Shown: positions 57,805 to 64,000 of the stretch, in pieces | Layout of the letters: each line of letters begins with the position of its first letter | Position numbering within the stretch: the first letter of the stretch is position 1 | DNA from: Polynucleobacter brandtiae | GTDB taxonomy: Bacteria > Pseudomonadota > Gammaproteobacteria > Burkholderiales > Burkholderiaceae | Assembly (NCBI RefSeq): GCF_002797575.1 | Contig: NZ_PGTX01000002.1 | Span: forward strand, 310,001-374,000 | Reading direction: 5' to 3' | Length of the DNA stretch: 64,000 bases | Notes under the pieces: generated by a model | What the model was told of the DNA's origin: nothing | Database searches by the model: none | Seen by the model: only the letters and a program-made list of their open reading frames with translations | Program-made: the position numbers and the translations under genes

Positions 57805-58029
57805 TTAATTGTTTTGTGTATTTTTTAGATAACCTTGAATAGCAACCATTGCAGATTCATCCAAAATATCCATAGGCACCCTTTGGGCGCCCTGCATAAT
57901 CATCAGAGCATAAGGCTTGGCCAGCGCTGCAACCTCGGGGCAAAGGTAAAGCTCTTCCCCTAGCGCGGGTAATTGGCTACGCCAGTAGTTAATTGCTAAT
58001 TCTAGTTCTTGAATGGATAAAAATACCAT
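57805..58029 (-). CDS. DUF3717 protein
   Basis: A 74-residue protein from the ATG at 58029 (MVFLSIQELELAINYWRSQL), 10 bases after the SET gene. The sequence SIQELELAINYWRSQ ... GEELYLCPEVAALAKPYALMI matches DUF3717 as I remember it, a family common in Burkholderiales and of unknown function. The longer open frame overlaps the SET gene and is not preferred. It is last in the dnaN-gyrB-SET series. Confidence 0.75.
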   Translation of the reverse strand: MVFLSIQELELAINYWRSQLPALGEELYLCPEVAALAKPYALMIMQGAQRVPMDILDESAMVAIQGYLKNTQNN

Positions 58030-58039
58030 TGAGGGTAGG

Positions 58040-58534
58040 CTACTTTGTATCAAGGGAAAGCATGGTGCCACGACACTTCTTTGCACCGCAGCGACAGCTG
58101 TAATCTTTTTTCATCTGCTTTGTGATGGGGCCCTCAACATCAAGCGAGTAATCATAAAACAGCTCCTCACCAACCTTGAGATCGCGCTTAGCGTAAATAA
58201 AAACACGAGGCTCCCCAGAAAAGCTTTCTTCGCGGGTTTCGCAGCTAGGCTTACAGGAGTGGTTAATCCAGCGCGCTGCATTGCCACCATACTTTGCATC
58301 AATGCACCGACCATCTTCAAGAGAAAAATAAAAGGTATGGTTTGGATCGCTAGGATCGTGTGGATGACGCTTTTCAGCGAGCTTCCAACTAATGCGTTCA
58401 CCCTTGTATTCAATAATGGCCGCACCTTTTTTAATCGCCTTAGCTACAAACACACCCCTCCCGTGAATAGGAGAGGATTGCACAACAATTCGAGTGCGAT
58501 CAATATCAGGGGCCAGCAACTTCTTTTTACTCAT
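58040..58534 (-). CDS. SET-domain protein lysine methyltransferase
   Basis: A 164-residue SET protein. Motifs in order: HGRGVF (24-29), the SAM-binding pseudoknot RWINHSCKPSCE (88-99), EELFYDY (123-129) and a post-SET zinc cluster CRCGAKKC (C147, C149, C154). All catalytic parts including the tyrosine of YDY are present, so it is probably active. The substrate is unknown; ribosomal, DNA-bound or other proteins are possible. It starts 5 bases after gyrB, so it should be made together with dnaN and gyrB. Confidence 0.9.
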   Translation of the reverse strand: MSKKKLLAPDIDRTRIVVQSSPIHGRGVFVAKAIKKGAAIIEYKGERISWKLAEKRHPHDPSDPNHTFYFSLEDGRCIDAKYGGNAARWINHSCKPSCETREESFSGEPRVFIYAKRDLKVGEELFYDYSLDVEGPITKQMKKDYSCRCGAKKCRGTMLSLDTK

Positions 58535-58539
58535 ATAAA

Positions 58540-61044
<2,505 letters not shown>

Positions 61045-61049
61045 CTAAA

Positions 61050-62165
61050 TTAAATACGCATTGGCATTACGACATACTTGAAATCTTCTGAGTTTGGAAG
61101 AGTGACTACCGCACTACTATTGGCATCACCTAAACTAATTTGAATATTCTCATTTTTTAAATTCGACAAAACGTCTATTAAATAACTTACGTTAAACCCA
61201 ATCTCAACATCTTCACTGTCATATTCGATGACAATTTCTTCCTGTGCCTCTTCTTGTTCTGCATTTGTTGATTGAATTGTGATTTTGTTTAGTGAGAGTG
61301 AAAAACGAACACCTTTGAATTTGTCCGTAGTCAAAATGGCTGCGCGTTGCAGTGCCGACTGTAAGAGTTCTCGACCAACAACCAATGTGTTTTTATGGCC
61401 TTTCGGAATAACTCGCTGAAAGTCCGGAAATTTTCCTTCAACTAATTTGGAGATGAGTTCAATGTCTCCGAAGGAAAACTTGATTTGATTTGAGGTTAAG
61501 CTCATTTCAAGTGTGTCGTCAGAGTCTCCTAACAAGTGTTGACACTCGAGAATGGTTTTACGCGGAATAATAATTTCTTGCTTTTCACCAGAACCGATCG
61601 GCGCCTCTAATAAATCTACTTGCGAAAAGGCGAGTCGATGCCCATCAGTTGCAACAGCGATCACTTTTTTACCTTCGACTACTAAAAGCATCCCATTTAA
61701 GTAGTAGCGAATATCTTGCTGTGCCATAGCAAAGTGCACCTGGCTAATTAACTGACGAAAACTTTTTTGCGTCATCTTCCAACTGGCCGTTACTTCTCCA
61801 ACACTCTGCATAACCGGAAATTCGGCAGCAGAAAGAGTCTGCAAAGAAAAGCGGCTTTTACCGCTTTGAACAACCATCTTGTTATCTTTTAAATTTAATG
61901 CAACCGGCCCCTCAGGAAGCGCCCTCAAAATATCGAGCAACTTTCTTGCAGCTACTGTCGTTGTTACTTCCTCGGACCCAATCCCAAAATTGGCGCTAGT
62001 TGTAATTTGTATTTCAATATCTGTTGAAACAAATGAAATCTTGTCACCCGACTTTTTAAAAAGAAGGTTTGCGAGTATTGGCAGGGTGTGTCTACGTTCA
62101 ACAATTCCACTTACAACCTGTAATGGTTTTAATAGACTGTCACGCGAAGCATTTACGAGTTGCAT
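61050..62165 (-). CDS. dnaN: DNA polymerase III beta subunit (sliding clamp)
   Basis: DnaN of 371 residues, the ring clamp that gives the replicase its processivity. The start MQLVNASRDSLLKPLQVVSG and the segments RHTLPILANLLF, YYLNGMLLVVEG and ATDGHRLAFSQV are family marks; the end KYVVMPMRI is typical. Its 264-base upstream spacer to dnaA holds DnaA boxes and a triplet repeat, so its promoter lies within the likely origin. Confidence 0.98.
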   Translation of the reverse strand: MQLVNASRDSLLKPLQVVSGIVERRHTLPILANLLFKKSGDKISFVSTDIEIQITTSANFGIGSEEVTTTVAARKLLDILRALPEGPVALNLKDNKMVVQSGKSRFSLQTLSAAEFPVMQSVGEVTASWKMTQKSFRQLISQVHFAMAQQDIRYYLNGMLLVVEGKKVIAVATDGHRLAFSQVDLLEAPIGSGEKQEIIIPRKTILECQHLLGDSDDTLEMSLTSNQIKFSFGDIELISKLVEGKFPDFQRVIPKGHKNTLVVGRELLQSALQRAAILTTDKFKGVRFSLSLNKITIQSTNAEQEEAQEEIVIEYDSEDVEIGFNVSYLIDVLSNLKNENIQISLGDANSSAVVTLPNSEDFKYVVMPMRI

Positions 62166-62429
62166 TGTTTTTAAATCCTTGTATATATCTTATTAGTAGT
62201 AGTAATAAGGCCTGCATTTTCTGTGGGTAAGTCAAAATTCCCATTAAAAACAAGCAATTAAGACAACTAAAACCTGTGGAAATCTTTTGTATAAATGCTT
62301 CATAAGTTGTGTATAACATTCTACTGTGCCACTATTTTTGCATGAAGCACTGTCTTTTTACAACTTATCCACAAACAATCCCCATACTTATTCATTAACT
62401 TATCCACAACCTTTTTTCACCTAAGAAAG
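62166..62429. other. oriC: Likely chromosome replication origin (oriC), dnaA-dnaN spacer
   Basis: An AT-rich 264-base spacer with exact DnaA boxes TTATCCACA at 62365-62373 and 62400-62408. A TTATACACA-type box lies at 62308-62316 (reverse) and a one-mismatch box TGTGGGTAA at 62222-62230 (reverse). Next to the last box lies a run of TAG/TAA triplets (62194-62208) with very AT-rich DNA beyond. The flanking dnaA, dnaN, gyrB and nearby parAB/parS also fit an origin. Confidence 0.8.
62194..62208 (+). repeat. DnaA-trio-like triplet run
   Basis: Five in-phase triplets TAG TAG TAG TAA TAA, followed by a GC-richer stretch GGCCTGC and, 13 bases on, the DnaA box at 62222. The order triplets, GC cluster, DnaA box matches the unwinding element described for the B. 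subtilis origin. Confidence 0.6.
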
Positions 62430-63869
62430 TTATGATTTTAATGTTTGCTCTATTACATGGACCTCATGATTCAGTTGGCTGTTGTGGGAACGCTCTTCAC
62501 CAATTTTACGCACTGCGTGCAATACAGTGGTGTGGTCCCGGCCACCAAATAACTCGCCAATTTCCGGCAGACTCTTTTGGGTTAACTCTTTTGCCATAAA
62601 CATAGCAATTTGCCGAGGTCGCGCAATGTTTGCTGGACGTTTTTTGGAGTACATATCAGCGACTTTAATGCTATAAAAATCTGCAACAGCCTTTTGGATA
62701 CTATCCACCGAGATTTGTCGGTTTTGGATGGATAAAAGGTCCCTAAGTGCCACTTTAGCAACTTCAATAGTGACTTCTTTGCCATGAAAACGAACATAGG
62801 CTAGGATTTTTCTTAACGCCCCCTCAAGCTCTCTTACGTTTGACCTTAGGTGTTTGGCAACGAAAAAGGCAACATCCTCGCTCATGGGAATCCCCTCGCT
62901 TAGTGCCTTTTTCATCAGAATAGCGACGCGCATTTCTAACTCTGGTGGTTCGATAGCTACAGTAAGACCAGAATCAAAGCGAGAAATAAGGCGATCATCA
63001 ATACCCGCTATTTTCTTTGGATAGGTGTCGCTAGTAATAATGACCTGCGCTTTATTGCCTAAAAGGGCCTCAAAGGCATAAAAAAACTCTTCCTGGGTTC
63101 TTGATTTGCCGCTAAAAAACTGAATATCATCAATTAGCAGTAGGTCTAAGGAGTGGTAGTAGCGCTTAAAACGATCAAACGCTTTCTGTTGATAGGCCCT
63201 AACCACATCTGAAACATACTGCTCAGCGTGAATATATCGAATGCGGGCGTTTGGTTTTTCCTTCAGGAGGTGATTTCCAATCGCATGAATTAGGTGCGTC
63301 TTTCCAAGCCCAACCCCACCATATAAAAACATGGGGTTATAAGAGGTTCCGGGGTTGTGGGCAACTTGAATAGATGCCGCCCGAGCTAGCTGGTTGGCTT
63401 TACCCGTAACAAACGTTTCGAACGTAAGGTTGGGGTTTAGTTTTGAATGATCCTCAATTTCAAACGCCTGTTCATTAACCAAAGAGTCTTCCTTGGTGGT
63501 AATTTCTTCCTTAAAAGATGGATTACCTATAGGCGATGACAGTTGGCCAACATCTTCTCTAGCCCCATCAACGCTCAATACCAGGTGAACCGTCATAGCA
63601 CAACCAAAATAATCGCATGCTAGCGCCTGGAAACGATCTGAAAAAGTCTTTTTAATCCAGTCTAATTTGAATCTGTTTGGCGCTCCTATAGTGAGTGATT
63701 GCTCACTTTCGTCTTGGCCAACAAAAATCAAAGGCTGTATCCAAGTTTTGTATTGTTGAGGTGAAAGCTCTCGCGCTAATTTACTAAGCGCATCATCCCA
63801 AAATCTCGGAGGACTAAGCGCATTTAATGTGGGTGAGTTTTGTAAGTTGTTCATTTTTAGAGGATTCAT
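62430..63869 (-). CDS. dnaA: Chromosomal replication initiator DnaA
   Basis: DnaA of 479 residues, the AAA+ protein that opens the origin. Domain I begins near residue 22 ([20 protein letters not shown]), and a variable linker spans about 100-145. Walker [11 protein letters not shown] is at 184-193 and Walker [11 protein letters not shown] follows. The DNA-binding signature [15 protein letters not shown] is near the end. The start is uncertain between the ATG at 63869 and one five codons later; neither has a clear ribosome binding site. DnaA boxes lie just upstream. Confidence 0.97.
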
Positions 63870-63887
63870 TGTAGCGATTTCGCGAAG

Positions 63888-63938
63888 TTATCCACAAGCT
63901 CCGAAAACGTGGAAAAGCTGTGGATAACTTGGGGATAA
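63888..63938. promoter_or_regulatory. DnaA boxes upstream of dnaA
   Basis: TTATCCACA (63888-63896) and TGTGGATAA (63919-63927, reverse) are exact boxes facing each other. TGGGGATAA (63930-63938) is a one-mismatch box directly next to the second. They lie 19 to 70 bases upstream of the dnaA start, the place for autoregulation, and could also belong to the origin. Confidence 0.8.
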
Positions 63939-64000
63939 AAATGAAAACCCCATAAAAAACAACAAGCTAGCTACTTTTGATCAATAAAACCTAAGAAATC
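63939..64000. other. AT-rich end of the window upstream of dnaA
   Basis: The last 62 bases are AT-rich and contain no visible gene or clear promoter. In relatives rpmH lies beyond, outside the window. Confidence 0.3.

Follow-up and report, generated by a model that had tools for sequence, protein, structure and literature searches.

A probable basal unwinding system in the dnaA–dnaN spacer of Polynucleobacter brandtiae and its conservation in the genus

Between dnaA and dnaN, Polynucleobacter brandtiae carries a short run of TAG and TAA triplets close to a DnaA box, and the question raised by this locus is whether the chromosome is opened there by its initiator. We examined a window of 64,000 nucleotides (the whole stretch of DNA analysed, positions 310001-374000 of contig 2 in a 2.0 Mb genome of 19 contigs), in which the dnaA–dnaN spacer measures 264 bp and is 69% AT. 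The genes concerned are:

62430..63869, minus strand: dnaA (initiator), an open reading frame of 479 aa with a phmmer match to the DnaA of entry 8btg (E 7.4e-105) and a PF00308 match
61050..62165, minus strand: dnaN, an open reading frame of 371 aa, conserved in the genus
58540-61038, minus strand: gyrB-like open reading frame, after dnaA and dnaN

The names dnaN and gyrB are those we assume from gene order and knowledge of the families. Directly after the gyrB-like frame there is a further open reading frame of 164 aa (58040-58534, minus strand), presumably with SET-domain-like motifs. An Rfam search of 58000-64000 returned no matches at the gathering threshold, and a reading of the region as an RNA element was dropped on that ground.

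The trio array, its DnaA box and the initiator

Our reference point is the basal unwinding system (BUS) of B. subtilis oriC (incC), which comprises DnaA-boxes 6/7, GGCC (PMC8235120) and six DnaA-trios; publications are cited here by PMC number. The dnaN-proximal end of the P. brandtiae spacer contains:

62166..62193: AT-rich flank, the 28 bp between array and dnaN, 82% AT, holding GATATATAC and a Shine-Dalgarno sequence
62194..62208, plus strand: DnaA-trio array 5'-TAG TAG TAG TAA TAA-3', read from the sequence, unique in the window and conserved in the genus
62209..62212: GGCC, the GC cluster separating trios from box
62209..62221: the 13-bp spacer GGCCTGCATTTTC from array to DnaA box
62222..62230, minus strand: BUS DnaA box, TGTGGGTAA on the plus strand, reverse complement TTACCCACA, one mismatch to TTATCCACA

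The preliminary description had claimed five in-phase TAG/TAA triplets with a DnaA box 13 bases away, a GC-rich patch after the triplets and very AT-rich DNA on their other side, and each of these is found where the list puts it; the patch amounts to the 4-bp GGCC, and the whole gap, GGCC plus nine bases, is 46% AT. Read 3' to 5' starting from the box, the array is AAT AAT GAT GAT GAT, and TAT at 62191-62193 (plus strand) is possibly a sixth, imperfect trio. The AT-rich flank, which would likely be the first stretch to melt, includes the dnaN Shine-Dalgarno AAGGA at 62176-62180 and GATATATAC (dnaA sense) at 62181-62189. The latter motif is conserved nearly as closely as the array, its last base excepted, and is perhaps the first DNA to melt.

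We compared this layout with what is expected of a BUS. At least three in-phase NAN trios, preferably 3'-(G/A)AT-5', are looked for, and here there are five TAG/TAA triplets; a box with at most two mismatches should follow the trios in the 3' direction of their strand, no more than 16 bp away, and here it has one mismatch and lies at 13 bp, common spacings being 10-13 bp (PMC8287927); the GC-rich motif between trios and box is GGCC. A tandem second box (at most four mismatches) is present in 57% of predicted origins and is not required, according to the same paper (PMC8287927). A search of 62209-62268 for such a box in the same orientation gave a single hit, 62258-62266, which is 27 bp away and is not in tandem.

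Arrays of this kind were rare by chance. Ours is the one run of at least four in-phase TAG/TAA triplets on either strand of the 64 kb, and none occurred in 161 kb (161,312 bases) of further stretches of the same contig, where at least three triplets with a box were found in two places. Among 20,000 dinucleotide shuffles of the spacer, a run accompanied by a box (at most two mismatches, 0-16 bp from the run) arose 63 times for at least three triplets, twice for at least four and once for at least five. When any NAN trio was accepted, one other candidate appeared in the spacer, near 62273, and it had no TAG/TAA run.

Residues 23-478 of the 479 of DnaA match the DnaA chain of entry 8btg, which we take to be the B. 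subtilis protein in its own numbering. When the two were mapped by eye, R297, K255 and E261 proved identical to B. subtilis R264, K222 and E228, the hydrophobic V223 occupied the place of I190 (V223 and K235 being similar residues), and S220, K229 and Y226 differed from N187, N196 and I193, respectively. Of the features expected of a DnaA acting on a BUS, the arginine finger and several of the ssDNA-binding residues are thus present. The differences at S220, K229 and Y226 count against the BUS reading; in B. subtilis it is N187, replaced here by S220, that recognises the middle adenine of a trio.

Conservation and substitution pattern in Polynucleobacter

A DnaN search of 186 Polynucleobacter genomes matched 169. 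From 211 loci (131 that represent 129 of the 169 matched genomes, plus 80 named ones, for the most part the same records) we derived 141 distinct dnaA–dnaN spacers, the window's included and one of them, L175, cut by a contig end. The named records among close relatives were mostly Polynucleobacter, the others being metagenome bins with broader names.

Aligning the spacer across the genus was a check proposed in the preliminary description, and the triplet run came through it: none of the 141 distinct spacers has fewer than three strict in-phase trios, the longest strict run being five in 78, six in 48, four in 5 and three in 10. By the strict search, the gap between the array and its best box is 13 in 127/141 and 14 in 4/141; the other 10 are split arrays, described below. 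When rows were anchored on the box alone at gap 13, TAG/TAA (YTA in the dnaA sense) stood at triplets 1 to 5 in 137, 137, 127, 127 and 123 of 141. The misses at triplets 1-2 match in number the four gap-14 rows, those at triplets 3-4 match these plus the 10 split arrays, and at triplet 5 four further rows read CGA.

For columns and parsimony we used the 127 rows selected by two requirements, gap 13 and four or more strict trios, and a tree of dnaA–dnaN coding DNA with 125 tips, two rows being without enough coding sequence. The 14 rows outside this set are register shifts, one of which (L119) also ends its array with CCA. On the tree, the first trio base changed 45 times, always between G and A, the middle A once and the third T never, while the seven variable gap columns s5-s11 accumulated 176 changes. 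Because of the way these rows were selected, triplets 1-4 are bound in part to look invariant; the box-anchored tally (n = 141) is free of that selection and serves as an independent check. In the gap, letters vary far more than length: C (dnaA sense) occupies the two positions adjoining the array in 119 and 120 of the 127 in-register rows, and of the GC motif these two Cs nearest the array are all that is near-constant across the genus.

This pattern is the published DnaA-trio consensus, 3'-(G/A)AT-5' (PMC10797057). It also fits the B. subtilis structure, in which the first two trio bases sit in a pocket and the third faces away (PMC10721633). In Polynucleobacter, the third T is nevertheless near-invariant along with the middle A, and it is stricter than in the relaxed complementary motif YTD of B. 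subtilis and H. pylori together (PMC8235120). H. pylori by itself has YTR, whereas the last base is A in all in-register rows of Polynucleobacter, for triplets 1-4 partly by selection.

The same data bear on whether the conserved AT-rich block might be a dnaN promoter or leader in which the triplets are incidental. The array does start 28 bp before dnaN, and the Shine-Dalgarno and GATATATAC beside it are conserved too. A promoter, however, would confine changes neither to one position in three nor hold a 13-bp distance to a DnaA box, and a consensus scan of 62000-62450 found no sigma-70-like site on the dnaN strand. The promoter reading was dropped on the last result, and we regard it as very unlikely. 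In the window, the central triplets are also flanked by perfect 7-bp arms, CTTATTA-N7-TAATAAG, as in a palindromic operator or a hairpin. Across the genus, the arms are perfect in just 42/141 distinct spacers, yet the triplets are kept, which largely refutes this reading; we dropped it, considering it extremely improbable.

Three features of the alignment stand out as unusual: trio identity, base 9 of the box and a split array. Trio 1 is AAT in 123/127 in-register rows, trio 2 AAT in 108/127 and trio 3 GAT in 118/127; trio 5 has G as its first base in 125/127. In a published survey, GAT was the most frequent trio, especially adjoining the box (PMC8287927). A comparable order is seen in T. maritima, whose AT-rich proximal trios play an assisting part only, whereas binding requires the distal TAG repeats (PMC10316083).

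The box itself has the genus form TTATCCAC-N, with base 9 unconstrained: it is A in 26/139, as against 135/141, 127/136 and 141/141 in the three other boxes of the spacer, one of which is loose at base 3 (A in 49/141). All four boxes were picked by fewest mismatches per spacer part, a procedure that favours the consensus in each of them.

In 10/141 spacers (L120, L122-L130) one extra base separates trios 2 and 3; the first TTA still starts 13 bp after the box, and a box qualifies for these arrays only when the first two trios are counted. All belong to a divergent clade of 12 (support 1.0); the remaining two, L121 and L210, keep the array whole, at gap 14. The tree puts L121 inside the group of ten, though with weak support (0.657), and the split arrays may therefore not form one lineage. 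The distal trios start 20 bases from the box in both the split (13+7) and the gap-14 (14+6) forms, and 19 in the main group. Changes of 1-2 bp in the stretch between box and DUE reportedly have drastic effects in E. coli (PMC8235120), and we counted the 10/141 split arrays and the 4/141 arrays at gap 14 against the BUS reading.

These features could tentatively be combined, by analogy with what was proposed for T. maritima, into an opening site of two modules, where the proximal AAT AAT might help melting and the distal GAT trios might hold the DnaA filament, with one clade having an extra base between the modules and a box needing eight of its nine bases; we think this rather doubtful. In that clade, the filament would need to accommodate a slip of one base from the second trio to the third.

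Position of the origin

The remaining boxes of the region are distributed as follows:

62308..62316, minus strand: DnaA box TTATACACA, one mismatch
62365..62373, plus strand: DnaA box TTATCCACA, perfect and pointing the other way from the BUS box; in 103/141 spacers a perfect box lies in this part
62400..62408, plus strand: DnaA box TTATCCACA, perfect; this part of the spacer has a perfect box in 127/141
63888-63896 (plus), 63919-63927 (minus) and 63930-63938 (minus, one mismatch): three DnaA boxes upstream of dnaA, from the box scan

A BUS should lie at the chromosome origin, and the GC skew switches at this locus. On the contig itself, six 20-kb samples ahead of C2:290001 have negative skew, as do 17/17 of the 5-kb bins that cover C2:290001-375000; past that point the next four bins are positive and the final 312 bases negative. 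The minimum of the joined stretch falls at window position 63807, inside dnaA, which bears out, within the stretch examined, another check that had been proposed. In the relative G125 (DnaN 98% identical, dnaN 1.8 kb from the record start), the switch is at the record ends: skew is positive in 10/10 samples from the first half, though at just 0.003 in the tenth, and negative in 10/10 from the second. The skew places the origin at dnaA, and does not tell the dnaA–dnaN spacer from the region upstream of dnaA.

Opening might take place upstream of dnaA, with the dnaA–dnaN element as an accessory. Three DnaA boxes are present there (63888-63938), and the skew minimum is nearer to them than to the array. 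Against this, 63870-64000 and the next 1.2 kb contain no run of at least four NAN trios 10-16 bp from a box, so that even the relaxed rule gives no second BUS there; we judge upstream opening to be unlikely. The three boxes are possibly the second lobe of a bipartite origin, one without trios.

Three known systems come closest to the dnaA–dnaN element. As in B. subtilis, the origin lobe is beside dnaA, GGCC and box lie 3' of the trios on the strand that carries them, and the GC cluster is GGCC; the box-proximal trios are GAT there and AAT here, and here there is no tandem second box. The order and orientation claimed in the preliminary description to match the B. subtilis BUS do so, with strand, GGCC and 13-bp spacing agreeing with published BUS descriptions. 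The DUE of T. maritima consists of TTATT, three TAG repeats (eTrio), AT-rich DnaA-trios, a GC-rich stretch and box 1, and the order here is the same, TTATT (62190-62194) overlapping three TAG, then TAA TAA, GGCC and box (PMC10316083). The box sequence differs, and TTATT is not constant in Polynucleobacter, because the base after triplet 5 varies; we claim no relatedness. With H. pylori oriC2 the shared features are a bipartite gene order and an arrangement in which a GC-rich stretch and a box come after the trios (PMC8235120).

Taken on layout, conservation and analogy, the element is very probably a BUS, the module by which the strands are opened at the chromosome origin. The proposal that the strand-opening site lies at the dnaN start is thereby supported as a prediction from sequence, by layout, genus conservation and a skew minimum in dnaA.

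Proposed opening and its taxonomic reach

If opening proceeds as in B. subtilis and H. pylori, domain IV of DnaA would bind the box at 62222-62230. DnaA-ATP would assemble from there over the 13-bp gap onto the plus strand, with about one protomer per trio, and would capture the (G/A)A bases of each trio, 3'-AAT AAT first and then 3'-GAT GAT GAT. Starting at GGCC, the duplex would open towards dnaN through the AT-rich DNA, and there the helicase would be loaded; the boxes at 62308, 62365 and 62400, together with those upstream of dnaA, may raise local DnaA.

Beyond the genus, we scanned 39 distinct spacers from 40 loci of other Burkholderiaceae genera, having dropped L302, L304 and L309 (dnaA not found beside dnaN); of the genera seen, g4 (0.2 Mb genomes) and those of the dropped loci, g8, g13 and g18, are outside this set. 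At least four NTN triplets at gap 10-16 were present in 0/39 and three in 2, and 25/39 had no box with at most two mismatches; by eye, many of these spacers look GC-rich. As this comparable rule gave 0/39, the BUS is not to be generalised to betaproteobacteria. That result and the missing tandem second box were also counted against the BUS reading.

A further scan of 40 loci (20 of which repeat genomes already counted) for at least three NTA triplets at gap 9-16 matched one spacer, that of the family member L351, with four NTA at gap 13. For L337, L338, L349, L350 and L354, where dnaN was unmatched, the scan took the last 450 bases; in L352 neither gene was matched. A trio scan of 800 bp upstream of dnaA, in the 20 loci reaching there, gave no match. 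Class-wide, 111 of 115 genomes searched were matched, and among the 29 distinct spacers of the best-scoring 29 (the window's excluded) at least four NTN triplets occurred in 6/29, five of these at gap 13. By eye, L299 and L258, from two other family genera, seem to show a TTATTA-N-CTA array as in the split clade.

We found no paper joining 'DnaA-trios' with 'betaproteobacteria' in those spellings, and the supplementary BUS list of PMC8287927 possibly has a Polynucleobacter entry. The element is a known kind of BUS, well preserved in Polynucleobacter, and our evidence does not extend to betaproteobacteria as a whole. To an element class already described as widespread, the genus adds a natural mutational record of one BUS, in which the first trio base alternates between G and A and the gap drifts in sequence but holds its length. 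How rigid the DnaA-trio register is can be tested directly on the clade with a one-base slip and on the free base 9 of the box.
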